Of a DNA stretch of 64,000 bases, positions 708-63,514 are shown piece after piece (position 1 is the stretch's first letter; the number at the start of each line of letters is the position of its first letter). The stretch covers positions 1 to 64,000 of the IMG/VR virus record IMGVR_UViG_3300027749_000055. One strand, written 5' to 3'. Under the pieces are notes generated by a model. That model did not search any database. It had not been told where the DNA came from and saw only the letters and a program-made list of their open reading frames with translations. The stretch is from a virus. Made by a program: the position numbers and the translations under genes.

Positions 708-736
708 AGTGTACCACAGTTGAGTAACAAGTGGTG
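708..736 (-). promoter_or_regulatory. Promoter of the 55-aa/HicA-like unit
   Basis: Reading on the minus strand, the phage promoter motif CTCAACTGTGGTACACT gives an extended -10 (TG-G-TACACT) at 708-713. The -35 region is weak. The start codon with its AGGAGG site is about 35 bases downstream. Confidence 0.55.
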
Positions 737-14321: not shown

Positions 14322-15515
14322 TTATTCCGCTACAACCGCAGTAATTGGGATACCGAGACGGTGCAGGGCTTCGTTGGGCATTTCGACACCCTCGACCCAC
14401 TCTTCGTAAATGCTCTCTGGGGCGGAAAAACCGTAATCGCCCACCTTGAATTTTACCTTTGGTTGCTTGGGCGTGGATTCACGACCTTCCAAAACCTCAG
14501 TGAAATCTTCGTCGTCAAAGCCCGTGCCCTCCAGCGAATCAAGGCTCTTTAGAACGCTACCGAGTAGGTCGTTGTCGTAGGTTGCTTTGTCCGCCGTGCG
14601 GTTATCCGCTAGAACAATTTTGGCAGCCGCCACTTCGTCCACGTCCACCCAAACCACAGCAATTTCTGTCCACCCAAGGGCTGAGGCGGCGGCGGCGGTA
14701 TGGTTGCCCTTCAAAATCTCGTTGGTGCGTCGGTTTACAACTACGGGGCGATACTGCCCCAAAACCCGCAAAGACTCGCTCACAGCCCCTATATCGCCCT
14801 CACGGGGGTTCTTGTGGTATCGGCGTAGTTCCGAGAGGGGGACAAGTTCTGTGGCTTCCAGCGTGTATTCAGCGGGTTTAGAGGTCTTTGCTTCCTTGGC
14901 TTCCTTGGGCTTTGGCGGGCGAGGTTCCTTGGGAACGTCAAGTCGTGCCCGCAGTTCCTTGTTGATGGCGGCTTTTTTGTCCCCCACAACCTCGATAATG
15001 GAGTTCAACCAGATTTCGTGGAGTTCGTGGTCGAGTTGCGCCCGCCACGCCCCAATGCGAATTGGAACATTGAGGTTCTCGATTTCGTCGGTTTCGTTTT
15101 TGGGCTGGGAAACGCCTCCGCCGGACGATTCGGACTCAGATTCCAATTCTTCCAGTATTGACGGGTCGTAGCCAGTTCCTTCGAGGTCGGGCAGTTCCCG
15201 CAAAAGGTCAATCAGGTATTGGTTGTTGTAGGTGGCAATGTCCGAAGTGCGGTTGTCGGTAATAAGTACCCGCAGAGCGTCACTTTCCGAGCCTTCGTAG
15301 CGAGTAATGGCGACTTCCTTCCAGCCCAACGACTTTGCCGCCTTCCAAGTGTGCGTTCCGGCAATGATTATGTCGTTCCACACAACCACGGGTGAGTATT
15401 GCCCATTGACGGTGAGTGATTCGGCAATCGCCGCCACGTCGCCCATACGGGGGTTTGAGGGGTGGGGCTTGATTGAGTCAATGGCGACTTTTTCCGCCCG
15501 AACGTTGATAGCCAT
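14322..15515 (-). CDS. Tandem ParB-like nuclease-domain protein
   Basis: 397 residues containing two ParB/sulfiredoxin-like domains. The first has IDSIKPHPSNPRMGD, NGQYSPVVVWNDIIIAGTHT and ITDNRTSD; the second repeats the plan with LRRYHKNPREGDIG, LGQYRPVVVNRRTNE and KGNHTAAAASALG / LADNRTADK. A charged linker (about 150-210) joins them. Such proteins bind DNA and some are nucleases; in phages they accompany DNA methylases or packaging genes. Expression comes from a strong promoter at 15617-15645 with a leader of about 100 bases. The duplicated domain is unusual but both halves look intact. Confidence 0.8.
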   Translation of the reverse strand: MAINVRAEKVAIDSIKPHPSNPRMGDVAAIAESLTVNGQYSPVVVWNDIIIAGTHTWKAAKSLGWKEVAITRYEGSESDALRVLITDNRTSDIATYNNQYLIDLLRELPDLEGTGYDPSILEELESESESSGGGVSQPKNETDEIENLNVPIRIGAWRAQLDHELHEIWLNSIIEVVGDKKAAINKELRARLDVPKEPRPPKPKEAKEAKTSKPAEYTLEATELVPLSELRRYHKNPREGDIGAVSESLRVLGQYRPVVVNRRTNEILKGNHTAAAASALGWTEIAVVWVDVDEVAAAKIVLADNRTADKATYDNDLLGSVLKSLDSLEGTGFDDEDFTEVLEGRESTPKQPKVKFKVGDYGFSAPESIYEEWVEGVEMPNEALHRLGIPITAVVAE

Positions 15516-15616: not shown

Positions 15617-15645
15617 AGTGTATCAGGGTTGAGTACCAACTGCAA
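15617..15645 (-). promoter_or_regulatory. Promoter of tandem ParB-like gene
   Basis: Minus-strand TTGCAG (15640-15645), 17-base spacer containing ACTCAACCCTG, and TACACT (15617-15622). It sits just after the tRNA-Gln gene and matches the phage promoter consensus. Confidence 0.7.
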
Positions 15646-16985: not shown

Positions 16986-19469
16986 TTATTGCGCCATTCC
17001 TCGCTGAGCAAGCGCAACAAGAAGGTCGCCCAACAATGAGTTGTCTTCTTGCTCGTCGTCGTCCGAGCCGTCAATGGCACGGTTCACGATTCCCCGCTTG
17101 CGCTCGATAAGAGCCGCAATGTCTTCGTCAATCGTGTTCTGCGTGAGCATTAGCCAACCCGTCACGGAGTCTGTCTGACCGATACGGTGGCAACGGTCTA
17201 CCGCTTGTTCCATATCGGCGGGAGTCCAACCTTGCTCGATAAACAGCACGTCGCTCGCTGCAGTCAGGGTCAGACCAACGCCAGCCGCCTTGATTTGGCA
17301 GGCGATTACCTTCTGGTCGTCTGACTGTTGAAATGCGTCCACGGCTTCCTGACGCTTCTTCATAGACACGCCACCCTGAATCTTGCAATTGCCCGCAAAG
17401 TTATCGGCAACCATATCCACGACTTCCGTGTGCCAACCAAAGACAACCAACTTTTTGTCCTGAGCAAGAAAATCCCGAATCCATTGCTCAGCCGCCTTCA
17501 TCTTCGCCTTGGCTGCGAGTTGCTTTAACGTCGAAATAGAAACAAGGTGTTCTGCGCCACGGGCACGAAGGGCACGTTGCCACGCTTCGTTCTGCGCTTC
17601 CTTGTCGGACGCACCGGACTCACGGGCAATGCGAAGAGCCTCTTCCGAGAGATACTTCACAATGTCGGCTTCCGCCTTCTTGTATTCCTTCATAATGTTC
17701 TTGTCGCCCTCAACGAGAACTTCAGACCACATCTTCGGGGGCAACTCGGTCAGCACGTCAGCCTTGCGACGGCGAACGTAACAGGTCGCACGGAGTTTGC
17801 GATTGAGCGAGGCAAGGGTGCGAGCGTTTGAGCGTCCGTAGGCGTTGCGGAATTGCGACGACCCACCGAAATCGCCCAAGCGGTTCAGCACTTTCAACTG
17901 CGTCATTAGTTCAAGGGGTTGGTTTACGATTGCCGTTCCCGATAGGCAGATACGAACGCCGTCGTCCGTCACTTTCTCGGAAAGCGAGATACACGCCTTG
18001 GCACGAATCGTGCTTCCGTTTTTGATGTAGTGGCTCTCGTCCAAGACCAAGCCCCTGATGTTGCCAAACTTGGAATACCAATGGTCGAGAATGTCGTAGT
18101 TCACGACGTAGATGTCAGCGTCGGGGAGGTTTCCGGACGTGCCCGACAGCACAGCGACCCGAACGCCGTCAATCCACCTCTCAGCCTCTCGCTTCCAATT
18201 TATTTTGAGCGAAGCGGGAACGACCACGACTGCGGGAAAAGCGTTAGCCGCTTTGAGAACGCCCAAGCCCTGCGGGGTCTTGCCTAATCCCATTTCGTCG
18301 CCAATCAGAACGCCCTCATTACCTTCACGAACCTTGGTGAACTTGCCGTCGGCATACTCAAAGCCCATAGCCCGCATTGCATAGCGAACGCCCGCACGTT
18401 GGTAGGGAAACAGTTGAAGGTTGGGCTTACCAAACCCTTCAATAATCAACTCAGCGTCGCTGGCGGACGACGAGGCAATAATGTCTCGAACGTCAGCGGC
18501 TTCTTGGAGAAGAGCCATTGCGTCGGGGGTGACGACAGCCTCTTGCAGTGTTACAAAAGCCAGCACTTCGTCGGCGGCTTCGATTGGAACAAGCCACGCT
18601 CGCTTTGACGGATTCCACGACGAACCAGGCATTTGCCTAACGAGCGAAATGGTCTGAGCGTCGTAAGGGAATGAAAGCGCAAAGTTACGTTCGTGAACGC
18701 TGACGACTGAGCCGTTGCCCATATCAACGTCGGGCAAATCCTTCACTTCGTCGGTGAGGGTGATGTTGTATTCCTCGGCAATCTTGCGGACAAAACCCAC
18801 ACATTCCTTGGAGACAATCCACAACTTTTTTGCGCTATCCCAACGGCGATTGGGAATCGTGCGAACTGCGTCCACAATGTTCGGGTTGTAGTCGAAGCGA
18901 AGGGCGATTGACCCCTCTAAGATGAAGGCGTGACCGGCTGGCTCGGCGGGATTAGCGGACGTGTCTACCTCGTTGAGAATCGCCGTTGCACGTTCAGTGA
19001 TTGGAATGTTGTAGCGACCAGCCCAAGTGACGACTGAGCCATACTTCGCCACGCTGACTTGCCAGCCTCGAAGGTCACGATTCCAAATCGCACCCAAGCC
19101 GGACTTCGGATAGGCAATGTCGCCGTAGGGCAAGAAAACCAGCACCTTGCCACCACGAACGTCAATGCAACGAATGTCGTCTGCACCACGGGCTTCCGGT
19201 GGTTCGGGAATGGCGGTGTAGTCAATTCCGCTCTTAGACAACTGACCCTGATACTTGTGAAGCATTGTCCACGCCTTGCGCTGAAGGGCTGGTGTCCACA
19301 CTTCGGGCGGGGTGCTGGCAAGTTTCTTGCCAAACTTCGAATCAGTGCCGTTGAAACCTTGACCGTCGCTAGACGACGCACCGTCGCAACGGGCGGCTAT
19401 CGCTTGGATAGCGGAAACGAGAATGGGATTTGGTGTGTGAGCGGTGGTTTGCTCTAGAGTCATAGTCAT
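16986..19469 (-). CDS. SNF2-family helicase with HARP-like segments (SMARCAL1-like)
   Basis: 827 residues. Up to three HARP-like segments occupy the N-terminal 300 residues, each with a strand-FPY/FDY-W pattern (for example ALSFPYDAQTISLVRQMPG and ALRFDYNPNIVDAVRTIPN). The ATPase core has Walker A GDEMGLGKTPQ (about 393), Walker B-like DESHYIKN (about 475), LSGTAIVNQP, and the C-terminal RecA-lobe motif CHRIGQTD (about 763). HARP plus SNF2 defines the annealing helicases that regress replication forks. Its likely job is fork restart or recombination. I prefer the start at 19469: it is six bases after a TAAAGT box, implying a leaderless message; 19475 is an alternative. Confidence 0.85.
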   Translation of the reverse strand: MTMTLEQTTAHTPNPILVSAIQAIAARCDGASSSDGQGFNGTDSKFGKKLASTPPEVWTPALQRKAWTMLHKYQGQLSKSGIDYTAIPEPPEARGADDIRCIDVRGGKVLVFLPYGDIAYPKSGLGAIWNRDLRGWQVSVAKYGSVVTWAGRYNIPITERATAILNEVDTSANPAEPAGHAFILEGSIALRFDYNPNIVDAVRTIPNRRWDSAKKLWIVSKECVGFVRKIAEEYNITLTDEVKDLPDVDMGNGSVVSVHERNFALSFPYDAQTISLVRQMPGSSWNPSKRAWLVPIEAADEVLAFVTLQEAVVTPDAMALLQEAADVRDIIASSSASDAELIIEGFGKPNLQLFPYQRAGVRYAMRAMGFEYADGKFTKVREGNEGVLIGDEMGLGKTPQGLGVLKAANAFPAVVVVPASLKINWKREAERWIDGVRVAVLSGTSGNLPDADIYVVNYDILDHWYSKFGNIRGLVLDESHYIKNGSTIRAKACISLSEKVTDDGVRICLSGTAIVNQPLELMTQLKVLNRLGDFGGSSQFRNAYGRSNARTLASLNRKLRATCYVRRRKADVLTELPPKMWSEVLVEGDKNIMKEYKKAEADIVKYLSEEALRIARESGASDKEAQNEAWQRALRARGAEHLVSISTLKQLAAKAKMKAAEQWIRDFLAQDKKLVVFGWHTEVVDMVADNFAGNCKIQGGVSMKKRQEAVDAFQQSDDQKVIACQIKAAGVGLTLTAASDVLFIEQGWTPADMEQAVDRCHRIGQTDSVTGWLMLTQNTIDEDIAALIERKRGIVNRAIDGSDDDEQEDNSLLGDLLVALAQRGMAQ

Positions 19470-19475
19470 ACCCAT

Positions 19476-19500
19476 ACTTTACCACGGTTGAGAGGCAGAA
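19476..19500 (-). promoter_or_regulatory. Leaderless-type promoter of helicase gene
   Basis: CTCAACCGTGG followed by TAAAGT (19476-19481), then six bases and ATG on the minus strand. TAnnnT-N6-ATG is the spacing expected for leaderless transcripts common in actinobacteria. No good -35. Confidence 0.5.
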
Positions 19501-23900: not shown

Positions 23901-24437
23901 TCAGTCGCCTTGTGGCGCACTGAGAGACTCTACCACAGTTGATTTGAGAAGCGCAACATTTCCTGATTCAAGGGCAAATCCCTTGCTTGCGATAATTTGC
24001 TGGTCGGACTTGTTTTTGAGTTGTTCATACATTTTGTTGAACTGCGCTCGAACCGTCGTGATGTTATCCGTCTGGCAGATGTGCCAGTAACCCAATGCCT
24101 TGACGGTTTGACGAATCAAATCGTGCGACCAAGGGGGGCGAGCCTCAAACTGATAAACGCCGTAGCGTTCAGCCACGTCCTGCACTTCAACCCACGCCTC
24201 GGCCGGAGACGGGGCAAGAAATCCTTGTAACTCGGCGGACTTTTTGCGGAGAGCCGCCACACTCGGCGGACGTTCTTCGGTCAAAATCCATTGCGTCGCC
24301 GCTTTATGAATTACGGTGGCGGGAATGTCCTGCAGTGCCCTGTGAAATACCAGCACGGTTTCCTTGGGCGCACTCCACGACGGATATGCGCCTGCGATAA
24401 TAGCCATCACCTCGGCTGTCTCTTGCGGTGTGGTCAC
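23901..24437 (-). CDS. Putative helicase-loader-like replication protein
   Basis: 178 residues. The N-terminal 70 residues (VMAIIAGAYPSWSAPKETVL, IPATVIHKAATQWI and PPSVAALRKK) resemble the helical loaders of phage replicative helicases (the G40P loader family). It overlaps the end of the initiator gene (GTGA), an arrangement typical of initiator-loader operons. Loading host DnaB-like helicase at the origin would be the expected job; no helicase gene of the DnaB type is present in the window. Confidence 0.55.
   Translation of the reverse strand: MTTPQETAEVMAIIAGAYPSWSAPKETVLVFHRALQDIPATVIHKAATQWILTEERPPSVAALRKKSAELQGFLAPSPAEAWVEVQDVAERYGVYQFEARPPWSHDLIRQTVKALGYWHICQTDNITTVRAQFNKMYEQLKNKSDQQIIASKGFALESGNVALLKSTVVESLSAPQGD
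23927..23956 (-). promoter_or_regulatory. Promoter of membrane protein gene
   Basis: Minus-strand TTGCGC (23951-23956), 18-base spacer ending TCAACTGTGG, TAGAGT (23927-23932). It lies within the 3' end of the helicase-loader gene. Confidence 0.7.
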
Positions 24438-26389: not shown

Positions 26390-26455
26390 ACCGTGGAACC
26401 CCCGTTTAGTAGTTTCCCTTGTACCGTGGAACCCCCGTTTAGTAGTTTCCCTTGT
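26390..26455. repeat. Tandem 33-bp direct repeat in divergent control region
   Basis: Two identical 33-base units (26390-26422 and 26423-26455) containing GTGGAACCCCCGTTTAGTAG. They are flanked by an inverted pair CAAGAAAC/GTTTCTTG and followed by a TGTAATTACA palindrome. A partial third copy of AACCCCCGT overlaps the leftward promoter. Likely operators between the divergent promoters. Confidence 0.75.
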
Positions 26456-26489
26456 AATTACAGGGGTTTGAAGTTTCTTGTTCAATGAT

Positions 26490-26518
26490 TTGCAATCTTC
26501 ACTCAACCATAGTAGAGT
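26490..26518 (+). promoter_or_regulatory. Rightward promoter of the plus-strand operon
   Basis: TTGCAA (26490-26495), 17-base spacer with ACTCAACCATAG, TAGAGT (26513-26518). Drives the only two plus-strand protein genes. Confidence 0.75.
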
Positions 26519-30833: not shown

Positions 30834-33800
30834 CTAATTTACATAAGTGTAAGTAGGCGGCGCAGACTCCACGAACGGAATGGTTATTTCTCGATAAGGG
30901 TTCACGGCGGCGTGGTGAACAATTTGAATGTCCTGATTGACGAAGATGTAGCGACGCTCGTTCTCGACGGGGTTGAGCAAGATAAAGATTTCACCACGCT
31001 TCAAGAACGCCAAGAACGCTTCCCACGTTGTCGGGTCTGTCCACATAACCTTCAGCGAGCCGTCTCGACCCGTCACCACCCCAGGCACGGTCAGCGGATA
31101 CGGAGAGCCAAGCGGGTAGAAGGTTCCCGCAGGGTGACGCTGGCTTTCGTCCATACCGTCCAAAACGTTGATAGCAAAGCGGATTGAATCGTCCGAGGTG
31201 CTGGCAATCCACCACGAATTGTTGGAAATCGTGTTTGCTTGCAGAGAGGCAGAACGAATACCGACCACGCCTTTTCCGGCAGGTGTCGTGTAGGTCGGGG
31301 TTATGCGGTAAATTGTGGTTTGGTTTGGAATTGCCTCATAGTCAATGAGAGATGTGAACCCGCTGCTATTTACTTGCAATTGACTACCACCACGAAGGGA
31401 CGACCACGTTTGCCCTTGGTCTTCGCTGCGCTCAACCAAAACCTTGTAGGAAGTGTGGGTATTAGCAGTGTTCACCCAAGCGGCGGTGTTCCAATTGAAG
31501 ACCGCAACCTGAGTTCCACTGTTTTGATTTTGACGAACCTGACCCGAAATACCGGCAGTCGCAGCATAAATCTGTGCGCCCTTCTTGTGGCTGAACCACA
31601 GGGGCGAAGCAAGCGTCACGGTTGCCGAACCGTTCCACGTCGAAGAAATGTTTACATATTCGACCTGAGACGAGCCAAAATCCACCGTCAGGGCAGAGTT
31701 GGCGGCAAGTCCTTCAACGGAATTCAAAATAATTGAGGTGTCGCCCACGTTTGCTGCGGAGGTCAGCGACGACCAAAGGGCGGAGTTTCCACTGCCGTAG
31801 TGGATTTCACGGGTTCCAGCGTCGTTGGCGGGGTCAATGACGTAAATCGAGGCTTCACCCAACGTCGGAGTGCTACTAGGAATGGTCAAAGCATTGTTAT
31901 TGGGCTGGTTGATAGCCCCTGTGACCACTGAGGACTGTAGGGTCGCCAGAGACGTGTTGAGGGGGCTGTAATCGCTTGTGGGGGCTGGGGCTTGCATAGC
32001 CTTGAACATCACCGCAGAGAGCGAATAGGCGTCCGTGTTGAGAACGTTTACCCATTGGAAGCGAGGACAAGCGTAAGAGGCGGAAACGGTGATATTTCCA
32101 ACAGTCGGCGGAACGGTTCCAGTGGTAAAACGAACTGCCATTGTGGTTGCGCCCTGAGCCGTGGTGGTCGTGGTAATAACGTTAAACGTGCCATTAAAGG
32201 TCAGCGGGGTTCCGGCTGAGATTGAGTGTGCCAGACCAATTGAGAAGTTGAGTTGTGCCGTTGAAGACGTTACGCCCGAAGTCGTGGCGGCGTAGGCAAG
32301 AACGTAATTTTGCGGGGCGGTGGCGACCATAAACGCAGGACACCAACCCTGACCCCACACGTTTTTTGTGTCGGTCAAAACCGTCGCTGCGTCTTGAACA
32401 GGGTTCAACTTGGTTCCCGCAGTGAAATTGTTGTGAACGTAAATATTTATGTTTGTCAAAGAAGCGGTGGCATTGGCGGACATAGTGATTGTCGTGCCAG
32501 AAATCGAGGAAACCGTTGTGCCAGAGGGAATTCCAATTCCCGAAATCACCTGATTCACGGCGACGTTTGTAATGGGCGACACGTTGCTCAGTTGGTTGCT
32601 ACCAGAGGTGATGTTTCCGGTAACAAGGGGCTTTGTCAGGCTTCGAGTGCCATTTGAAGTTGCAATTAAGTTGCCATAGGAGTCATACCAATCCACATAG
32701 GGCGTAAACAACGGATAATCCGGCGTGGAAATACCAGCCGTGCTGGGCACACGGGTTCCCTCAATCATCTTCGAGAAGCCACCAAAACCGTAGGTGTTAC
32801 CGGCATAAACCGGAACCGAGTTCGTAGCCGTCCAACCGTTCCACGACGCAGGGGCTAATGAAATCTCTGCGGTGAGCGGTGAAGCGTAGGTTCCTGATAG
32901 CGAAGGGTCAATCGTGGCGGTGTTCTGTCCAAAAATTGGCGGGTTGGTAATAACAATTGGGCAGTAAGCGTCGTAGTTGAAGTTGGAGTAGAAGGGCGTA
33001 ACGGGAATACTCGTTGAACCGGCAGGAATTTTTTTAGCGGCGGGTGAGTAAAGAATTACATCAACCGTGCCAGAGAGCGTGAACGAGCCGGTAGAACCGT
33101 TGTAGCCCGTAGCGGCTTGCTGGCAAGAGTTACTCAGCGTCACCGTAAACGAGCCACCGCTCGACGCAGTATTAGAAACAACGTATGCGCCCGCAGGCAT
33201 ACCAACGCCTGAAATAATCCAACTTTGATAGGCGTTTGAGGCAACGCTGGTTGTAATCGTCGTCGTCGTTCCGTTGGCGGTTGCCTTGTTCGAAAGCGTG
33301 ATTGAGTTGTTGATGTTGTTGATGTAGGTAATGGTGGTGCTTGACGGAATACCCGTTCCCGAAACGTTCATTCCAATCGTCAAACCACCAAGCAGGCTGG
33401 CGGAAATATTAGAAACAGTGGTCGAACCATTCGTGGTATTTCCGGTGAACGACGAGGTTCCAAGCGGAATCGAGAGTGTCGTGTAGGGGTCGGACGGAAT
33501 TACCGCATTTTTATAGGTGGCGTAATACTGCGTCAGACCAACATAGAACGTCTGATAGGTCTTGTTGGAAACTTGTTTTTGCGGGGTAAACCACTGCCCC
33601 TGAGCCGTTGAACCACCAACAACTTTGTTCGTGGTGAACTGCAACTTGTCGTTCTTTCTAACGGTCTGACCCGCCCACTGACCTTGATTCAGAGACTTAT
33701 CAAAAATGACCTTCTTGCGAGAAGCGTGACGGGGTGCGGGAACGTAGTGAACCATATTGCCGACAGGAATTGCCGACATTTTTGTCCCAGGAATCGTATA

Positions 33801-36800
33801 CATTGGGCACGAAGTCGTGGGAACAACGGGAATGTTCCACGTTGAAACACCGCCCGCAAACTGCCCGCCGGAAAAATTTGAAGCAACTGTAAAAATGGCT
33901 GCGACAGTTCGGCTTGTGTCTTGTGTTCCGTCCGCCTTGAAGGGGTGTCCAAAAACTTTGAAAATGTCGCCCTTGCGCCAACCGTCATCGTAGAGACGAG
34001 TGGCATTGGGGGTAGCACTGTTCAAGGGTGATACTGAAATATTTGTGTTTGTAACCGTCACCTTTAGGTGAGTAATAACTTTGACCTTGCCGGTGTGCTG
34101 GTCGGTTCCGCAAGCGTGGTCTTGTGACAAGTATCCAATTCGAACATCGGCTCCACCGGACGTAGTAGCACCCACAACGCTAATGATTTTTGCAGGTTCG
34201 GCTGATTGCGCCGAGGTCGGGGCGGTTTGCGTTGCCTTGGGCTGTATGAAAGTAACCGCTTGGCTGCTTCCGGCAGAGTTGAAGGTGTAATAACTCTTAG
34301 CCGCCGGAACCGTCCACGTCGAGTATTGAATTTGACAGTCGAGGCTTTGACCACTGCCAACGGGCAGGCTGTCGTTTGGGTCGTCAATGAGGACGTAATT
34401 CTTGTGCTGGTCGTTGCCTTCAACAATATTGTAAGAGTTAGTGACTGACTTGGAGTAAGTTCCGCCCGTTGCCGGTTCAACAATTTTCCAAACCGCCGTG
34501 CCGAGAACGGTGGTGTCGTAAGTAAATGACAAAATTCCATTACTGCCGGTGTAAATGGGTTGTTGCAGACCATAAACAATTTGCGACCATTTGGAGTGCG
34601 TCAGACCCGTGCCGCCCGTGCCCGTTGAGTAGTTGTAGTTGCGGAGAATAATTTTGAACGTGTCCGCCTTAGTTTTGGAACCGTCCGAGAGGTTTTTCAC
34701 TAAGATTTGCTCGGCGTTGGTTCCGTCGGCATTTTGGACAGTTACCCAAAATGGCGGGCTGGTCGGGCTGGTTGAGCCAATCGGAAATCCCGTTGCTTTG
34801 ACGGTTGCACCATTGAGGCTCGACACGGAGAACGTGCCGGTTCCGGTGGTGGTAGAAAGCGCACCCACCGTAGAGACGTATCCAGAAGCACCTACGGGAA
34901 TTGAACTAATCAACTGACCTTTGGTGAACGAACTGCTTGAGTTGGTGGCGGTCTTGCCAAAATAAAGCGACGTTCCGGCGGTGTCGTTAGTTCCCTTGTG
35001 CCAACCACCCACGCTGGAACCAAAGTCGGCGTTGTTGTCGCCCAAAAGGTTGTCCGACACTTGAATCGCCAAGTGATTGACTGCGTTGGTGTTGTCTGTG
35101 AAAGCGGTCACAAGCGGTTGCTGTGGCTGAGTTACGAGCGTGGCAAAATACGCCGAGTTCCAATCACTCCACCACGCCTTCTGGTGGAAATCTTTGGAGA
35201 CACGAACAAAAACCCAATAAAACTCGCCGCTAATGAACCGCTTTGTTCCGGTAAAACCGTCTGAAGTCAAGAAAACCGACGAAGCGTCGTTGTTGGCGGA
35301 CTTTTTCCAAATTGGCGTTGAAGAGTTGGGGTCGAAAGCGGAGTTCTGATAAGTGAAATCGTCAAAGACTCGAACGTCCCAGCCGGTCTGTGGGTCGTTT
35401 TCAACGTCGGAGTAAGTCCACCCAATGTAGGGGTTGGTACTGTCGGATATTTCCAAAATATCCGAAGGCGAGAGGTAAATACCGGCAACTGACGGGCCGC
35501 CTCGGAACGTAATCTGCATTGCGATTGCTCGGAGAGCAACGCTGGTGGACTGAGGAACAACAACCCGTGCGTTGAGCAAAACGTTTTGCAAAGAACTTGC
35601 CGACCATTCGTTACCGTTGGGGTCGGTCGGGCGAACATTACCGACGTTCACCGTGTAACTAGCGGGCGAGTTGTTCGAGAAACTGTCGGCAGTTCCCACC
35701 GCACCCGTCACGGGGTCTACAAGGGTGAAAATTTCTTTGTCTTTGTAGGACGAAGAAACTGCGCCAAGGACTGAGTAGACATTTTGAACGTTGTGGACAC
35801 GGGCATAACTCCACCCGTTGCCGTCAAAGATGTAGAAACTGTCCAAATCGGGGCGGTAGGTAACGTCGCCAATGGCGGGATTTGTGGGGAACTCATACCA
35901 TTCGAGGGTTGCGCCTGCGCTGTGGTTGTAAACCGTCGGGAAGGCAATTGGAAGGGCAAACGGCGGGGTTCCGGCGGTGATGTTCGAGGTGGAATACGGC
36001 AGAGCCGTGGGGTAGACGGTTTCTTGCACTGCGCCAGAATCCAAAACCAAGGGGTAGAGGTATTGAATTTGCGCCGTGTTGTCGTAGGGGTAGTTCGGGT
36101 TGAACGGCTTTACGGAGAATGATGTAGACGTTTCAGGCGTGTAAGCGGTGACGGTCAATGTTTGGGTCGTGGTTCCATCACCGGAAGTAAGCAAAACAAC
36201 GTCATTTTGATTGAGCGGAATGTTCAACCCGACGGTGATAATGGTGTTGTAGTTGGTAATTACACCATTTGAGCCAATTACCGCAGGGAAATTGTGCGGA
36301 GGCTTAAAATATTGAATTGGAATTGTGGTTGAACCAGCGGGGGTGTCCTGCGCCACCGTAACAACTGCCGAGGCGGTTCCGTAAACGAGGTAAAGGTTCA
36401 AGCCATTTGTCAAAGCAATCGGCGTAGGTGTTGTCGTCAATGACGTAATGGGGTTTCCAATAACCACATTGACCGTGGGGTAAAAGTAGGGGACGGATAT
36501 TGAAGTAATGGTGCTGGATACGTCCATAACCGCCGTCGAAACGGGCGACAAATCGGGGTAGGTATTTGTTGTGGGCGAAGTCAGTGTAAAAACGTATGAC
36601 GAAGTATTGTTCAAAATCGAGGAACACGTCAGCGTGTCTCCGTTGATAACGATTTGGAAGTTTGACGTTCCCGACAGGGCGATTGGTTGCTGAAAGCCAG
36701 AGGTGACGTTGATTGAAATTTGCGTTGAGCCGACGGGGGTGTTCCCAACCACCCGACCCAAAGAGCCAATGGATAGTCCGATGGGGGTCTTTGTGGTGTC

Positions 36801-39800
36801 GTCATTTTGATTGTAAACCGAGGAATAAGCAGTGGGGAAGTCGTTTGCGTCGTCAATGGTGATAGAGCCGGAGCCAACGGTTGCCGAGTAAGTCAGCGTG
36901 GTGTTGATGTTGGGCTGACCGCTTACGCCAGACTGATACCAAGGCTGAGTGAAATTCATAGACGCATTTGTGGTGAGTGTCGTTTGACCACTTGGGTTTG
37001 AGGCGACAAGTGCGCCAGCGGTTAATACGCCGTTGTTGGCAACGGTTCCATTGTCTGCTCCACTGAGAACGGGGGCATTCTTGCCGTGGTTGTTGGCAAA
37101 ACTGCCAATAACGTTTGGAATGGTAACAGTTTCACCCGCACTGTGATTGTATTGAAACGACTGCCCTTCGGCAAGCGACCAAATTACCGCCCCAGCGTTG
37201 GCTTGTGTAATGTCGCTACCGTCGATTGTTGAATACGAGCCACTAATTACAACGGCTTCTTGCGTTTCGCCGTCGCCAACAATGACGACGTTGTTGGCGT
37301 TGCCGTAGGTCAAGTTTATGAAATTGGTAATGGGTGCAACGGGGCTTCCCGAACGTGCAGGCTTGTAAGAACTGCCCGAAGTCAGTCCGCCGTTTACAAT
37401 TAACGCTTGCGAGGACTGAGAAACAATGTCGGAAAAAAGAGTTCCGCTAACGTATGAGCCGAGGAAGGCGGGGGCGACTGTTTCAATGTCTCCCGTCGTG
37501 CTACTGCCAAAATAACGATTGCCGGAAAGCCAACTGCCGACGGCGGTTCCCGCAACGTGCTTCTTGGCGATGGCGTCCACATACACACAACCAGAACCCG
37601 TATTTTGATATCCGGTGTTCGTAATCATTGAGCCGTCGGAATAACCAGCGGAGTTGTATGCAAAAAACGAATTTTTGGCGTAGTCGCCGTTGGTGTAGGG
37701 GGTGGTAGCCAAGGTGTAAGCGGGGCTTCCCGTGTTAGCGACAAAATACGGTTGAGCAACGTTTACAACGCCGCCACTGACGTAAACGTCCGTCTCCGTG
37801 CTACTGACGGTAAAGGTGTTTGAGGTTGTTCCCGTGATATTTACACCGACCAAGTTCAACGTCGTTGGGATAATGCCGGAAATGGTGACGGTCTGAAGCG
37901 TTGCAAGATTGTGCGTTGCGGAGGTCGTGTAAGTAACGGCAGAACCCGTGGTCGAAACTCCAATAATTGTCCACGACTGCGATTTTGTTGTGACCGTGTA
38001 TAGAGCGTTGCGGAAGAGGTAGGTAGAGTTAATGTTTATATTTGCGGTGGAATCAACAAAGAACGTTGAGGTTCCGGTCTGTAATGACGTTGATTGAACC
38101 AACGTCGCCGCAGGAGTTTTTGCAAAGTTGGTCAAAGACAACGTGACTTTGCCATAGGGTGCAGTAACAGAACCAACGTCCTGTGCCCGCCACGGGAAGG
38201 TTCGGAACTGACCATAAAAAGATGATTCGCCAATCTGCGAGCCGTCCAGAGTGCAAAAAGGATAAACCAACGAAGGCGTGAAGGTCGAAGACGAAACAAG
38301 CAACCAATTGCCGGAAACCGTGGTGCTTCCGCCGTTGGTGTCTATGGTTGAACTGCCGTCGGCAATATTGACAGCCACATTGGAAGAAAGCGTCCCCGTG
38401 AAGGCGTTGGAGATAGTGAAATAACTTGTGTCCGCCAAATATGCCGATACAGAGCCGCCCGTTGAAAGGTGTGAACTACCGTCGGTGGCGAGGCTCCACG
38501 TTCCCGTCAGCGTTCCACCAGACGGGTTGGTTGCACGGGTAATGGTGAACTGCGTAGAGGTGGCAGAAACAACCTTTTCGCCGGTGGCCACGTTGAAGTT
38601 GGTGGTTCCCGTGACCGTGATGTAGTCGCCCGCTTGCAGGTTGTTGCCTGCGGTATAAGTCCAAGTGTATAGGCCTCCACCAGCCGCCGAAGAAGAAACG
38701 GTAGTGATAGAACCGTAGGCGGTTTTGGAAATGTTGAATGACGTGGACGAGGGAACGCTTGAAATCGTGTAAGTGCCGTTGATGTAATTTCCACCCGACA
38801 ACGTAACTTGTTGCCCAACAACAAAGGGGTGCGCCGACGAGGTGGCAACCAAGCACCACGCTTCGTTGTAAGGGGAAGAATTAGTTACGATTGACGTAAC
38901 TGCATATGAAGGTAAGGAGACACCCGCACTGCCAACGCTGGGGATTCCGGTAACGGTGGTGCTGGTGGGGATTCCACTGCCCGTAATCGTTGTACCAATG
39001 CTCGGTGAGTATGAACCGCTAGTCAAAGACATTGGGTTCTGAGTAGAAACCGTCGAACCCGTAATCAACTTGTTTTGTAACGAAGAAGGGGTGGTAATCG
39101 AAAAGGCTTGGCCAGGGCTGGCGTAGGTATATGAACCTTGTGCGCCCGTGTTGATGTAAATTGCGTTGTTGGCAGCGTCCACGCCTACAACCGTGGACGC
39201 TGCAAGGTATCCGCCAATTACCCCAAACGCCATTCCGACTTGGATACCCACTGTGCTATTTACAATCAAACGGGTAACGGCATTTATCATAATTCCAACC
39301 GCCCCAACGCTGGTGGTGGTGCTAGTGCTGGAAAATGTAAGAGTGGTGGAACTATTGACGGTTACAACGGTGTAAAAACCCGTGTATGCCGAAATGTTCG
39401 CAAACGAAATCAAGTCGCCAACCGAACGTCCGTGGGCGGTTCCCGTTACCAAAACGGCATAATAGTTAGTAGGTGAACCAGCGGCTGTAATCGAGGTTAC
39501 GGTGTGTAAGGTAGAGGCATACGAGGCTGTGATATATCCGGTAATGGTCGGGTTTTGAAATTGCGTTGTAAACGTTGCACCAGAAATGGGTGCGGAAATC
39601 GCTTGACCAATTAAGGTTCCACCAGCGTTGGTGGGGTCGTAGAGATTATCTCCGCTAAGAACCGACGGGCTGGGAATTGGGGTGTTGATGTATCCCGTGT
39701 TGTCGAGGTAGTCAAAGAGGATAAAACTCTTTGGGCTTCCAATGGTTGCACCGGCAATTTCGTGATATTGAGCGGTTGCGCTGATACTTGCACCCGACAT

Positions 39801-41351
39801 TGCGCCATAAATGGAAACAATGTAAGCGGTTCCGCCACCGTTGGACGTTCCCGTTGTCGAATTGGTGACGGTGAACTGCGAACTGTCTGCGTATGCGATA
39901 GTCGCATTAGAGAGGTTGAGCGAGGGCGTATCGGTAAGACCAATAATCGTGACCGCCTGACCCGCCACAAAAGAGTTGGGTGCGGTGTAGGTGACTGTCG
40001 TTCCATTACCCACAGCCGACGAAATCAAAGCGGTGGTAGAAACCGACACGCTTACATAGTCGGTTGAAGAAACCGTCGTGGAATAGTTGTAGGAACTAGG
40101 CGTTGCGCCAGAAATCGTAATGGGCGTTCCAACGGGCTTTTGAAGGTAACTGTCGTTCCACCCAATTTGGAAATATCCCAAAGTGGCAACTCCCGTTTGC
40201 CCCGTCAAAGTGCCGGAAGCATTGGAACTAACGGTAAATTGCGTCGAGGTTGCGGTGGCAACCGGAACGTTCGTCAGGTTAAACGCCGAGTTCGTTAGCC
40301 CTAAAACGGTAACTACGTCGCCCACGGAAAAGTTGTTGCTTGCGGTATAGGTGACTGTCGAAATACCATCACCACTTGCGCCCGTGATTTGAGCGGCATT
40401 TTTCACTGTAGAAAAATTACTTGACGTGGTGGCGTTGGTGCTGGTGTTTGACTGAGTGTCCTGCAAGGTTAAATAACCTGCCGACACCGCTGTAATTACA
40501 CCAAGGTAATTCGAGTAAGAGTCTGTAAGCGTTTGCCCAACAACAAAGTTGAGTCCGTCGTTGTTTGGAAGAAAAACAACGTTATTGGGAATTGTTACTG
40601 TTACGGTTCCCGCACCCGTGGTGGGGGCAGAAATGGTAATTTGCTTTGACGAACCAATTGAAACAATGGTTGCACCGGACGGAATGTTTGTTCCTGATAC
40701 CGACATACCTACGGCAAGGTTGGCGGTTGAAGAAACGTTGGTCAAAACTGCAGTCGAACCGTCCGTGGTTGCAGTCAGCGTCCACGGCAAGTTGGTGTAA
40801 TAACCAGATGAGAGCGTGTAGTCGGAGAAAAGGCGACGCATAACGGCTTGCGGAACGTCTGGTGGAGTAGAAAAATTCATTGTGATTGGGGTTCCGCCAC
40901 CAATGGTGTCGGGGTATGGAACCGCAGTCCACGTTGGAACGTTTGTGGTGGGAATCAAACCAACCGATTGAATGTTGGCTTGCTCACTGTAAAAATTGTC
41001 CGTTGAGGTATTACCACCATAACCTTCGATAACGGCAAGATTTTGACCCTTTTGGAAACCAGCAACCTCATCTATGAAAAGCCACGATTGGTCAGCACCC
41101 TTGGGAAAGTCGTTTGCGTAAATCGCACTGCCGATAAGGGTGCTATTAGTTGTTGTGGAAAAGCCGGTGAAAAAACGAGTAATGTCCTCAACCTGAATAG
41201 AACTGTAAAGCGAAATGCTATCCAAAATGTTGCCAGCGGCAACTTTGGTCAGGGTTGAAAGTGCTGAGGCTGCGTCGGACGTTTGCGGAACAGACCACCC
41301 TTGGTCGGTCTGGGCATTGGCGTAATTGGGGGCTGCAGTCAGAATCCTCAT
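30834..41351 (-). CDS. Giant repetitive tail protein (3505 residues)
   Basis: The largest gene of the window. Starts MRILTAAPNYANAQTDQ and ends with a compact domain (RRYIFVNQDIQIVHHAAVNP). Most of it is a series of Ser/Thr/Gly/Val-rich beta modules. Two kinds recur: VTYTAxNxFxVGDxVTVxG (first third) and VSGTGIPSGTTIxxI...ITLS (several, for example near residues 200 and 2670). FN3-like segments occur near 1980 (WTYSDVENDPQTGWDVRVFD) and a carbohydrate-binding-like module near 2110 (NNADFGSSVGGWHKG). It lies between tape measure and hub, so it is probably a central tail-tip or fibre protein for host contact. It may be processed. Confidence 0.75.
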   Translation of the reverse strand: MRILTAAPNYANAQTDQGWSVPQTSDAASALSTLTKVAAGNILDSISLYSSIQVEDITRFFTGFSTTTNSTLIGSAIYANDFPKGADQSWLFIDEVAGFQKGQNLAVIEGYGGNTSTDNFYSEQANIQSVGLIPTTNVPTWTAVPYPDTIGGGTPITMNFSTPPDVPQAVMRRLFSDYTLSSGYYTNLPWTLTATTDGSTAVLTNVSSTANLAVGMSVSGTNIPSGATIVSIGSSKQITISAPTTGAGTVTVTIPNNVVFLPNNDGLNFVVGQTLTDSYSNYLGVITAVSAGYLTLQDTQSNTSTNATTSSNFSTVKNAAQITGASGDGISTVTYTASNNFSVGDVVTVLGLTNSAFNLTNVPVATATSTQFTVSSNASGTLTGQTGVATLGYFQIGWNDSYLQKPVGTPITISGATPSSYNYSTTVSSTDYVSVSVSTTALISSAVGNGTTVTYTAPNSFVAGQAVTIIGLTDTPSLNLSNATIAYADSSQFTVTNSTTGTSNGGGTAYIVSIYGAMSGASISATAQYHEIAGATIGSPKSFILFDYLDNTGYINTPIPSPSVLSGDNLYDPTNAGGTLIGQAISAPISGATFTTQFQNPTITGYITASYASTLHTVTSITAAGSPTNYYAVLVTGTAHGRSVGDLISFANISAYTGFYTVVTVNSSTTLTFSSTSTTTSVGAVGIMINAVTRLIVNSTVGIQVGMAFGVIGGYLAASTVVGVDAANNAIYINTGAQGSYTYASPGQAFSITTPSSLQNKLITGSTVSTQNPMSLTSGSYSPSIGTTITGSGIPTSTTVTGIPSVGSAGVSLPSYAVTSIVTNSSPYNEAWCLVATSSAHPFVVGQQVTLSGGNYINGTYTISSVPSSTSFNISKTAYGSITTVSSSAAGGGLYTWTYTAGNNLQAGDYITVTGTTNFNVATGEKVVSATSTQFTITRATNPSGGTLTGTWSLATDGSSHLSTGGSVSAYLADTSYFTISNAFTGTLSSNVAVNIADGSSTIDTNGGSTTVSGNWLLVSSSTFTPSLVYPFCTLDGSQIGESSFYGQFRTFPWRAQDVGSVTAPYGKVTLSLTNFAKTPAATLVQSTSLQTGTSTFFVDSTANININSTYLFRNALYTVTTKSQSWTIIGVSTTGSAVTYTTSATHNLATLQTVTISGIIPTTLNLVGVNITGTTSNTFTVSSTETDVYVSGGVVNVAQPYFVANTGSPAYTLATTPYTNGDYAKNSFFAYNSAGYSDGSMITNTGYQNTGSGCVYVDAIAKKHVAGTAVGSWLSGNRYFGSSTTGDIETVAPAFLGSYVSGTLFSDIVSQSSQALIVNGGLTSGSSYKPARSGSPVAPITNFINLTYGNANNVVIVGDGETQEAVVISGSYSTIDGSDITQANAGAVIWSLAEGQSFQYNHSAGETVTIPNVIGSFANNHGKNAPVLSGADNGTVANNGVLTAGALVASNPSGQTTLTTNASMNFTQPWYQSGVSGQPNINTTLTYSATVGSGSITIDDANDFPTAYSSVYNQNDDTTKTPIGLSIGSLGRVVGNTPVGSTQISINVTSGFQQPIALSGTSNFQIVINGDTLTCSSILNNTSSYVFTLTSPTTNTYPDLSPVSTAVMDVSSTITSISVPYFYPTVNVVIGNPITSLTTTPTPIALTNGLNLYLVYGTASAVVTVAQDTPAGSTTIPIQYFKPPHNFPAVIGSNGVITNYNTIITVGLNIPLNQNDVVLLTSGDGTTTQTLTVTAYTPETSTSFSVKPFNPNYPYDNTAQIQYLYPLVLDSGAVQETVYPTALPYSTSNITAGTPPFALPIAFPTVYNHSAGATLEWYEFPTNPAIGDVTYRPDLDSFYIFDGNGWSYARVHNVQNVYSVLGAVSSSYKDKEIFTLVDPVTGAVGTADSFSNNSPASYTVNVGNVRPTDPNGNEWSASSLQNVLLNARVVVPQSTSVALRAIAMQITFRGGPSVAGIYLSPSDILEISDSTNPYIGWTYSDVENDPQTGWDVRVFDDFTYQNSAFDPNSSTPIWKKSANNDASSVFLTSDGFTGTKRFISGEFYWVFVRVSKDFHQKAWWSDWNSAYFATLVTQPQQPLVTAFTDNTNAVNHLAIQVSDNLLGDNNADFGSSVGGWHKGTNDTAGTSLYFGKTATNSSSSFTKGQLISSIPVGASGYVSTVGALSTTTGTGTFSVSSLNGATVKATGFPIGSTSPTSPPFWVTVQNADGTNAEQILVKNLSDGSKTKADTFKIILRNYNYSTGTGGTGLTHSKWSQIVYGLQQPIYTGSNGILSFTYDTTVLGTAVWKIVEPATGGTYSKSVTNSYNIVEGNDQHKNYVLIDDPNDSLPVGSGQSLDCQIQYSTWTVPAAKSYYTFNSAGSSQAVTFIQPKATQTAPTSAQSAEPAKIISVVGATTSGGADVRIGYLSQDHACGTDQHTGKVKVITHLKVTVTNTNISVSPLNSATPNATRLYDDGWRKGDIFKVFGHPFKADGTQDTSRTVAAIFTVASNFSGGQFAGGVSTWNIPVVPTTSCPMYTIPGTKMSAIPVGNMVHYVPAPRHASRKKVIFDKSLNQGQWAGQTVRKNDKLQFTTNKVVGGSTAQGQWFTPQKQVSNKTYQTFYVGLTQYYATYKNAVIPSDPYTTLSIPLGTSSFTGNTTNGSTTVSNISASLLGGLTIGMNVSGTGIPSSTTITYINNINNSITLSNKATANGTTTTITTSVASNAYQSWIISGVGMPAGAYVVSNTASSGGSFTVTLSNSCQQAATGYNGSTGSFTLSGTVDVILYSPAAKKIPAGSTSIPVTPFYSNFNYDAYCPIVITNPPIFGQNTATIDPSLSGTYASPLTAEISLAPASWNGWTATNSVPVYAGNTYGFGGFSKMIEGTRVPSTAGISTPDYPLFTPYVDWYDSYGNLIATSNGTRSLTKPLVTGNITSGSNQLSNVSPITNVAVNQVISGIGIPSGTTVSSISGTTITMSANATASLTNINIYVHNNFTAGTKLNPVQDAATVLTDTKNVWGQGWCPAFMVATAPQNYVLAYAATTSGVTSSTAQLNFSIGLAHSISAGTPLTFNGTFNVITTTTTAQGATTMAVRFTTGTVPPTVGNITVSASYACPRFQWVNVLNTDAYSLSAVMFKAMQAPAPTSDYSPLNTSLATLQSSVVTGAINQPNNNALTIPSSTPTLGEASIYVIDPANDAGTREIHYGSGNSALWSSLTSAANVGDTSIILNSVEGLAANSALTVDFGSSQVEYVNISSTWNGSATVTLASPLWFSHKKGAQIYAATAGISGQVRQNQNSGTQVAVFNWNTAAWVNTANTHTSYKVLVERSEDQGQTWSSLRGGSQLQVNSSGFTSLIDYEAIPNQTTIYRITPTYTTPAGKGVVGIRSASLQANTISNNSWWIASTSDDSIRFAINVLDGMDESQRHPAGTFYPLGSPYPLTVPGVVTGRDGSLKVMWTDPTTWEAFLAFLKRGEIFILLNPVENERRYIFVNQDIQIVHHAAVNPYREITIPFVESAPPTYTYVN

Positions 41352-59485: not shown

Positions 59486-60505
59486 TTAGATAATCGCTGT
59501 CCAGAAGTAGCCCAAGTCCTTTGCAACGACCTTGTTGTCGAAGGCGATTTCAGCCTCAACACGGTCAGCCTTCAACTCTTCCATACGGAAGCGTGAAACG
59601 CCGACAGTCGTTCCCAGACCGCCCGACACACCCGTCCACATAAACGAGTAGCCAGCCGAGGGGGTCATCAGACCAGGGTTCGGAGCCGTGTAGCAAAGCA
59701 GAGCCGCACCCGCACCACCGTTGGTGGCGACGAAGTTGTAGGTCTGCGAGTTGCTGCCTTCCTTACCCGTGTTCACAACCGACTTGGCGACCAGCACACG
59801 GTCTACTCCGAAGAGTTGAGCGAGCAGGTCTTCCGTGACGATTGCGCCCGCTTGCGTATACTTGTAGCGGTCTACGAGCAGCGGGTGGTTCTTCAGGACT
59901 TGGAACACCTTGTAGCCAAGGACGAGCGTGTTCGGCTCGTAGCCGGTGTTCTGCAGGACGATTGCCTTGGCGACTTCCACGTCCACGATAGGGTTCGACT
60001 TGTAAGTCGTCGGGGCAGCCTCGTAGTCAGACCAAGCGTAGGTCTGACTAGCGGTGGGGTTGGTCGAAGCGTCGGCCACTCCCGTAATGTCGGTTGCCCA
60101 GACACCCGTTTGGAAGTAGTCCACTGCCCACTGAACCTCACGACGGAGAAGGAGACGCTGAGTAACAAACTGCGTAGCCTCCATATCGGGGTTCAAGGGG
60201 TTGTCGGCGTTCGCACGGGTCTGGTCGCCAATGTCCTTGTGGAAGGCAAACACGTCAGTCTGATAGGTGTCCGTGGTCAGACCGTAGCCGGAACCAGCCG
60301 AAGCAGTGCCGTCAGCACGACGCTGAGCCTCGTCACGGAACCAATCGTCCTTCGTGTATTTGAAGTAGAGGTTCGACTTCTTGTCCACAGGGATAGTCGG
60401 GAAGACCTTATCCGCAATGAAGTTGTTGGTGTTCTGCAAATAAGCAACCGAGATGTTGGTCAGGATTGCGTCAATGTGAACGTTGTTTACGTTGGGTTGT
60501 GGCAT
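59486..60505 (-). CDS. Major capsid protein
   Basis: 339 residues. Classic phage capsid signature: NFIADKVFPTIPVDKKSNLY, WFRDEAQRRADGTASAGSGY, FHKDIGDQTRANADNPLNPD and ATQFVTQRLLLRREVQWAVD, ending with ELKADRVEAEIAFDNKVVAK. The fold is HK97-like. No long N-terminal scaffold domain; assembly probably depends on the upstream scaffold. AAAGGA site. Confidence 0.93.
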   Translation of the reverse strand: MPQPNVNNVHIDAILTNISVAYLQNTNNFIADKVFPTIPVDKKSNLYFKYTKDDWFRDEAQRRADGTASAGSGYGLTTDTYQTDVFAFHKDIGDQTRANADNPLNPDMEATQFVTQRLLLRREVQWAVDYFQTGVWATDITGVADASTNPTASQTYAWSDYEAAPTTYKSNPIVDVEVAKAIVLQNTGYEPNTLVLGYKVFQVLKNHPLLVDRYKYTQAGAIVTEDLLAQLFGVDRVLVAKSVVNTGKEGSNSQTYNFVATNGGAGAALLCYTAPNPGLMTPSAGYSFMWTGVSGGLGTTVGVSRFRMEELKADRVEAEIAFDNKVVAKDLGYFWTAII

Positions 60506-62163: not shown

Positions 62164-62973
62164 CTAAAACGGGTCAGGCTCAGCCTTGGCGGGGCAAATG
62201 TCTTGGTAGGAACACCACCCGCAGAGGACACTCTCTTTCGGCGGGAAGAAGCCGTCCTCGTAGCAAGCCTCAACATTCGCCCACGTCTCCTTGACCCGTT
62301 GCTCAGCCTGAGCGATATCAGAATCAGTGACGGGCAGGGCGAGTGTCGTGCCGGTCTTGACGTAGAGCAACTTCATTTCCTTGGGGCGAATCCCATAGAC
62401 CTTCTCAATGAGATAGGCGTAAGTCTGCACTCCGTGGAAGGCTTTGGCTTCCCACCCTCGACGTGGGGGCTTGCCGGTTTTGTAGTCCACAATGGAATAC
62501 GAGCCGTCGGGCAGAACGTCAAGGCGGTCAATGATTCCTCGAAGACCCCAATCGTCGCCCATAGAGAAATCCAAACGAATCTCGACTTCTTTGGCAACAA
62601 CCGTGGTTGGGTCTTCCATTTGATAGTAGTTGCGAATCAACTTCACAATCTCGGCGGCAAAGTTTTGACGACCCACTGAATCGAGTTCAAGTTCTTCGGC
62701 AACCTCGTCGGTCACAAAGATAGGGAAGACCAGACGGAAGAACTCTAGGCAGTTGTCGAGCGTTCGCTTTTCGGGAGTCTCCATACTTTCTTGAAACATC
62801 ATCTCCATAACGGCGTGAAAGACCGTGCCACGGAAAGCGTCAATTTTCTTGCCCTCGACTCGTTTCTCGACGGAAACGTATTGGTATTGGCGGGGGCAGT
62901 TATTGAACTGCGAGATACGAGAGGGGGATAACCCGTCGGGCTTAGGGTGCAGATGAACGGGGGTTGAATCCAT
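62164..62973 (-). CDS. RecB/Cas4-like Fe-S exonuclease
   Basis: 269 residues. One cysteine near the N-terminus (SQFNNCPRQYQY) and three at the C-terminus (VLCGWCSYQDICPA) are the 4Fe-4S ligands; the nuclease core is RGIIDRLDV and SIVDYKTGKPP, with QTYAYLI following. Cas4-like enzymes degrade DNA from 5' ends and, with Sak4-like recombinase, form phage recombination systems. Start at MDSTPVHL; the longer frame adds only ten residues without a ribosome site. Confidence 0.85.
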   Translation of the reverse strand: MDSTPVHLHPKPDGLSPSRISQFNNCPRQYQYVSVEKRVEGKKIDAFRGTVFHAVMEMMFQESMETPEKRTLDNCLEFFRLVFPIFVTDEVAEELELDSVGRQNFAAEIVKLIRNYYQMEDPTTVVAKEVEIRLDFSMGDDWGLRGIIDRLDVLPDGSYSIVDYKTGKPPRRGWEAKAFHGVQTYAYLIEKVYGIRPKEMKLLYVKTGTTLALPVTDSDIAQAEQRVKETWANVEACYEDGFFPPKESVLCGWCSYQDICPAKAEPDPF

Positions 62974-63053
62974 AACGCACACGATAGCAGGACGGTGCGA
63001 CAAGGTATTGAAACCCTTACAAATATTGGGCTTTCAAAAGTTAGATAAATAAC

Positions 63054-63082
63054 TTGCGTCTGTTACTCAACTGTGGTAGAGT
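63054..63082 (+). promoter_or_regulatory. Plus-strand promoter of ncRNA
   Basis: TTGCGT (63054-63059), 17-base spacer with ACTCAACTGTGG, TAGAGT (63077-63082): a very clear example of the phage promoter. Confidence 0.8.
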
Positions 63083-63088
63083 ATTAGA

Positions 63089-63242
63089 AGAACTAAAGAA
63101 CCACCCTGCGAAGGCGGGGAGGTGAGCCCGAACACCTTGCAGGGTGGGTCGGGAAGTTGTGAGCGAGACGGTTAGCCCTAGGAAACGGGAACTCCGGTAA
63201 GTAGCACAACGCAGAAGCCTCACCTTCGGGTGGGGCTTTTTT
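63089..63242 (+). ncRNA. Structured plus-strand non-coding RNA
   Basis: About 154 bases from the predicted start to the terminator GCCTCACC-TTCG-GGTGGGGC-TTTTTT (63217-63242). No ORF with a ribosome site. A perfect nine-pair stem (63101-63109 with 63139-63147) encloses a smaller hairpin, and GTTGTG/CACAAC (63156-63161 with 63205-63210) encloses a second internal stem. It runs against all neighbouring genes. I do not recognise a known RNA class. Confidence 0.7.
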
Positions 63243-63244
63243 GT

Positions 63245-63514
63245 TTACAGGGTGACTAAGCCGTTGTAGCGACGAGCCTTGCGGAAAATACGGTTGATTT
63301 TCTCCGCCGTCTTCATAGCCATAAGCAGGTCACGGACGGTCAGCGAGAAGTCGTAAAAGGGAACGCCCAGCCCGCCCTCAATGTAGTCGTAGCGAATCAA
63401 CCGCAGTTGTGCGTGGTCTTTGTCCGAGTAAACGACATACTTGTATTGACCGTCACGGGCTTCGAGGACGTTAGGGTCAGTTGTCTTCCATTCCAAAGCA
63501 GGACGGCGCAACAC
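63245..63514 (-). CDS. Hypothetical 89-residue protein
   Basis: MLRRPALEWKTTDPNVLEAR; a beta-rich front (YKYVVYSDKDHAQLRLIRYD) and C-terminal basic helix (KTAEKINRIFRKARR). GTG start, overlapping the preceding stop (TAGTG). No family. Confidence 0.6.
   Translation of the reverse strand: MLRRPALEWKTTDPNVLEARDGQYKYVVYSDKDHAQLRLIRYDYIEGGLGVPFYDFSLTVRDLLMAMKTAEKINRIFRKARRYNGLVTL

Follow-up and report, generated by a model that had tools for sequence, protein, structure and literature searches.

Few known RNAs are as poorly understood as the large noncoding RNAs of phages. One of them, GOLLD, has a conserved 3′ region and a less conserved 5′ region (PMC12286853), and in one prophage it accumulated in lytic growth yet was dispensable (PMC7567579). 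Here we analysed a stretch of 64,000 nucleotides (nt), the window, which comprises bases 1–64000 of the 113,659-bp virus record IMGVR_UViG_3300027749_000055 (G000). An earlier note had proposed an unrecognised structured RNA on the plus strand of this window. The proposal is borne out by the lack of an Rfam match, by the conserved promoter and terminator and by compensatory changes in homologues, and the locus almost certainly is a real gene for a structured RNA. It has what a stand-alone phage noncoding RNA gene is expected to have: its own promoter, a terminator, no open reading frame (ORF) and a conserved fold.

Promoter, transcript and terminator

The predicted gene consists of the following elements.

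63054–63082, plus strand: promoter TTGCGT-17-TAGAGT, read from the sequence (−35 TTGCGT at 63054–63059, −10 TAGAGT at 63077–63082)
63088–63242, plus strand: predicted noncoding RNA of ~155 nt, 5′ end placed from the −10 box
63100–63123, plus strand: hairpin a, whose loop is GNRA-like (GAAG in the window, GAAA in the homologue L083), from the homologue alignment
63127–63153, plus strand: hairpin b, CCCGA...UCGGG with an inner hairpin (helices 2 and 3 of the alignment)
63152–63211, plus strand: conserved 3′ core, GUUGUG...CGG-UUAG-CCC-UAGGAAAC-GGG-AACU-CCG...CACAAC (covariance model R1, 87.9 bits)
63213–63242, plus strand: strong intrinsic terminator with a 12-pair stem, a UUCG tetraloop and a U run, with an equivalent in each complete homologue

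The −35 element, the 17-base spacer and the −10 element are present where the earlier note had placed them. The −35 TTGCGT is weak, matching the E. coli consensus at three of six positions; a generic promoter scan of the window did not report this promoter. The spacer carries a phage-specific motif (ACTCAACTGTGG, at 63065–63082), and the window has 10 occurrences of the promoter motif ACTCAACYGTGNTANNNT, compared with an expectation of 0.68. All complete homologues have their own sigma70-like promoter upstream, with a spacing of 17–18. The phage-specific motif and the promoters of the homologues support the RNA promoter despite its weak −35 element.

Members of the promoter class have the form TTGCRN-N5-ACTCAACYGTGR-TARAGT, with additional matches elsewhere in G000, outside the window. 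A helicase gene (16986–19475) and a ParB-like gene (14322–15515) are among those with a class site upstream. A phage factor may help the host RNA polymerase to read these sites, or they may overlap a repressor site.

Window positions 708–725 (−), 15617–15634 (−), 19476–19493 (−), 23927–23944 (−), 26501–26518 (+) and 63065–63082 (+): sites of the promoter class

Just upstream of a promoter-like site, at 26390–26460, the window also contains a direct repeat of ~33 bases (CCGTGGAACCCCCGTTTAGTAGTTTCCCTTGTA, two copies).

The tetraloop terminator claimed in the earlier note was found as the hairpin AGAAGCCUCACC-UUCG-GGUGGGGCUUUU at 63213–63240, with a run of T residues behind it. At −68.6 versus −50.9 kcal/mol (z −4.2), the fold of the predicted 155-nt transcript beats 200 of 200 dinucleotide shuffles. 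A second covariance model, R2, matches 63093–63212 (E 6.8e-23), and this is the sole significant copy in G000. A conserved small ORF was considered and rejected, in agreement with the ORF-less unit described before: the plus-strand frames contain stops and are not maintained in L083, and the core varies in length by 1 nt among homologues, which argues against a conserved reading frame.

Fold and modular homologues

Homologues were sought in capsid-anchored loci by BLAST with the RNA as query, in IMG/VR by pattern scans, and with model R1. BLAST returned a 91% identical copy in L083/L004, in surroundings that differ from those in the window, and the conserved core in L022, L042, L048 and L059. 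The pattern scans added L086 and L103, and R1 added G010. Counting the window, nine distinct core-bearing sequence types are at hand, eight of them from other phages. The core was detected in 6 of 50 related records; other parts of the family occur in L015, L040 and L061. On the capsid tree the presence and absence of the RNA need at least four changes, of which well-supported branches force only one. Among cultured phages, BLAST gave terminator-only or marginal short matches and no homologue, and R1 did not match Arthrobacter phage Ottawa or Microbacterium phage ValentiniPuff, the nearest cultured phages by capsid. A pattern scan of a bacterial genome collection gave no match.

Eight sequences were aligned over the 3′ domain, which comprises hairpin a, hairpin b and the core hairpin. 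The alignment contains 34 pairs, and 95.8% of the cells are paired. The compensatory changes for which the earlier note had looked to homologues are present: double-sided changes occur at 11 of the 34 pairs against a shuffled mean of 6.2, and the covariation score is 0.36 compared with 0.21 in shuffles; none of 500 shuffles was as high in either measure. Sliding the pairing partners as a control lowered the pairing to 30–45%. Hairpin a has five double-sided changes in its 10 pairs, with 90% of its cells paired in the eight sequences, and hairpin b has such changes at 3 of 10 pairs. The outer helix of the core is paired throughout (100%) and includes three double-change pairs, while the two internal loops and the 8-nt terminal loop of the core hairpin are near-invariant. 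The pair cells include 54 G-U but only 4 A-C combinations, which indicates that the plus strand is the selected one. By these comparisons the fold is maintained in evolution by compensatory change. The hairpins lie at the positions given in the earlier note, but the long first stem CCACCCUGC/GCAGGGUGG, which comes from single-sequence folding, was rejected as the conserved fold, since the homologues instead support two successive hairpins, a and b, ahead of the core hairpin.

Family members range in size from 155 nt (the short form in the window) to 611 nt in L042, the latter with a fold z of −10.7. Ahead of a conserved 3′ core of ~60 nt and the terminator stand 5′ modules that are present in some members and absent from others. 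L022 and L048 share the promoter, the 5′ hairpin and the 3′ domain with L042 and differ in the middle. The near-identical phages L059, L103 and L110 have the promoter, 5′ domain and terminator in common, but whole modules between them differ: L059 contains the core alone, L103 an extra module plus the core, and L110 the extra module alone. The RNA of L015 shares its middle domain with those of L086 and G010 and has a different 3′ end. Comparison of the sequences of close relatives has shown that 5′ modules are gained, lost or exchanged. It is only suggestive that the extra module of L110 and L103 is an internal duplicate of the core, as 15 to 53 of 1000 shuffles were as good.

These natural deletion variants, a family of 155 to ~610 nt in which near-identical phages differ by whole modules, narrow the minimal functional unit to the 3′ domain of ~120 nt, which is open to synthesis and testing.

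Genomic setting and possible role

As the earlier note had observed, the RNA is oriented opposite to its neighbours; the closest gene on either side is a minus-strand gene, and in the mapped cases transcription of the RNA runs against the neighbouring genes.

62164–63003, minus strand: neighbouring gene for a PD-(D/E)XK / Cas4-like exonuclease
63245–63514, minus strand: neighbouring gene p89 for an 89-amino-acid protein of unknown function, convergent with the RNA and kept in relatives
L015 4930–5360, minus strand: related long RNA of the L015 type in the exonuclease/p89 gap, also in L016 and L017
G000 100456–102071, plus strand: two-part large terminase, also at L086 2589–4294, minus strand

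The RNA gene occupies the gap between the exonuclease gene and p89 in the window, L083 and L022. In L042 and L048 it is located ~1 kb upstream of gene p108, in L059 more than 4 kb upstream of it, and in G010 and L086 between terS and terL. Two overlapping genes encode the large terminase, one for a Terminase_6N ATPase half (327 amino acids) and one for a Terminase_6C nuclease half (210 amino acids). At least 80 IMG/VR contigs contain relatives of the capsid gene (59486–60505, minus strand), and the nearest cultured ones belong to Arthrobacter and Microbacterium phages, which makes an actinobacterial host likely. We take G000 to be a tailed phage, probably of an actinobacterium.

Two further observations concern the large phage proteins. 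The peptide KGG[P/E/A/V]GSGR occurs 35 times on the minus strand of G000 in many different large proteins (for example at window positions 2155, 3258, 5010, 7622, 9558, 10663 and 21375) and may mark sites of cleavage by a prohead protease or act as a tag for encapsidation. An ORF of 3505 amino acids at 30834–41351 (minus strand) has no Pfam match.

Since the gene keeps its promoter, core and terminator and changes its neighbours, action in trans is most likely. The shifting location between phages makes regulation of one neighbouring operon unlikely, and this speaks against the regulator of the adjacent late operon suggested in the earlier note. Its second suggestion, a host mimic, found no backing either: the RNA belongs to no Rfam family, and E. 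coli genomes gave no match, although the actual host is not among the genomes searched.

Near-invariant loops, in a core whose outer helix changes by compensation as hairpins a and b do, point to a binding surface. The variable outer modules, the patchy presence and the mobility of the gene point to an accessory role. In view of these two points, our preferred reading is an RNA that acts on a host protein or ribonucleoprotein as scaffold or decoy. During infection, the phage's own class of promoter would drive transcription of the RNA, which would act away from its own gene. A protein or ribonucleoprotein would attach to the conserved loops of the core; extra binding sites or bulk would come from the 5′ modules. 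In this way the RNA would probably capture a host factor, for example of RNA metabolism, translation or the defence apparatus, and it would probably be an accessory scaffold or decoy, not an essential part of the virion. Taken as one statement, a trans-acting structured noncoding RNA gene with an accessory scaffold or decoy function, representing the compact member of a non-Rfam family, is slightly favoured. The scaffold or decoy mechanism by itself is tentative, at roughly a third.

Several points weigh against this interpretation. The RNA gene is known here from sequence alone, its transcript is predicted, and we infer both the partner and the scaffold or decoy role. The conserved loops could equally fit a ribozyme, an aptamer or an RNA-RNA assembly. 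Some of the absences among related records may be undetected divergent copies, as R1 missed L015, L040 and L061. In the window sequence alone, the comparative a/b fold loses by 6.4 kcal/mol to a competing fold; L083 adopts the comparative fold unaided in single-sequence folding. The window lineage may switch between the two folds.

It is unlikely that the RNA is a base-pairing regulatory small RNA (sRNA) whose loops control at least one mRNA of the phage or the host. Its own promoter and terminator and its size are typical of sRNAs, and the promoter class also serves replication-type genes such as those for the helicase and the ParB-like protein; however, conserved loops and modular growth are unusual for such sRNAs, and location and neighbours vary. 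An RNA-only assembly like GOLLD and ROOL, in which the conserved loops hold several copies together as a multimer or cage, with the shortened window RNA as a minimal subunit, is rather improbable. The conserved 3′ and variable 5′ regions of this phage-borne RNA, which resemble the organisation of GOLLD (PMC12286853), and the large ornate versions such as the L042 RNA would agree with it, but Rfam matches to both families and nearby tRNAs are lacking, and a 155-nt member is far below the size of known cage RNAs. A counter-defence RNA, directed as a decoy or inhibitor against an anti-phage system of the host, would account for the patchy presence and the rapid turnover of modules, which are exchanged even between near-identical phages; the core itself is slow to change, and we consider this role improbable as well.

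A packaging RNA of the phi29 pRNA type, the third suggestion of the earlier note, is very improbable. The gene does lie between terS and terL in two phages, but it lies elsewhere in others, the phages have terS and a two-part terminase, the RNA is undetected in many close relatives and Rfam, with the phi29 pRNA family included, gave no match. A DNA-level or chance structure without functional RNA is hardly credible, although the gene is known only as sequence and the minus strand over it carries a 60-amino-acid ORF, given the compensatory changes, the strand-specific G-U pairs and the promoter and terminator in all complete homologues.

Comparison with described RNA families

Rfam searches of the window, L097, L103 and L042 with gathering and relaxed thresholds (E up to 3–10) gave no credible match, and the best sub-threshold matches, rnk_pseudo and b55, reflect essentially a resemblance between hairpins or terminators. 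In the window, neither Rfam nor ARAGORN matched 6S RNA, tmRNA, RNase P, SRP or other known families, and HEARO, the IscB-associated RNA in Rfam, was not matched either. A TnpB/IscB guide RNA would call for a cognate nuclease gene: the TnpB/Cas12f domain PF07282 had no match in G000, with controls that worked; IscB itself was not searched. No description of this RNA family was found in the literature searched. As this family shows, a search of Rfam alone misses such RNAs in lake viruses, the lake origin being deduced from the sources of the contigs.

In its anatomy of promoter, short transcript and intrinsic terminator the RNA resembles ordinary phage sRNA genes, from which it differs by a compact 3′ core with near-invariant loops that is common to versions of up to ~610 nt. 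An ~800-nt noncoding RNA of phage ICP1 (PMC7567579) likewise lies in an ORF-less gap away from tRNAs and has no known role; it belongs to a Vibrio phage, is known only from RNA-seq and is likened here by description only. ROOL is also a phage-borne large structured RNA with no known protein partner, but its covariance model does not match and the architecture here is patchy and modular; ROOL also differs in its proximity to tRNAs. GOLLD shares with the present family the phage-borne location, the ornate structure, the conserved 3′ and variable 5′ regions and the unknown function (PMC12286853). It differs in core sequence and fold, its covariance model does not match, and many members exceed 800 nt compared with 155 nt for the window RNA. 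The family RNA is not located beside tRNAs: those of G000 are found only at 15.7 and 16.8 kb, and none is present in the homologous loci scanned. It is conceivable, though doubtful, that the family represents a new class of ornate phage RNAs with a modular build, in which exchangeable folded modules are set on a fixed 3′ core and promoter. The window RNA would then be the founding compact member of an RNA or ribonucleoprotein machine as elaborate as GOLLD and ROOL and unrelated to them.
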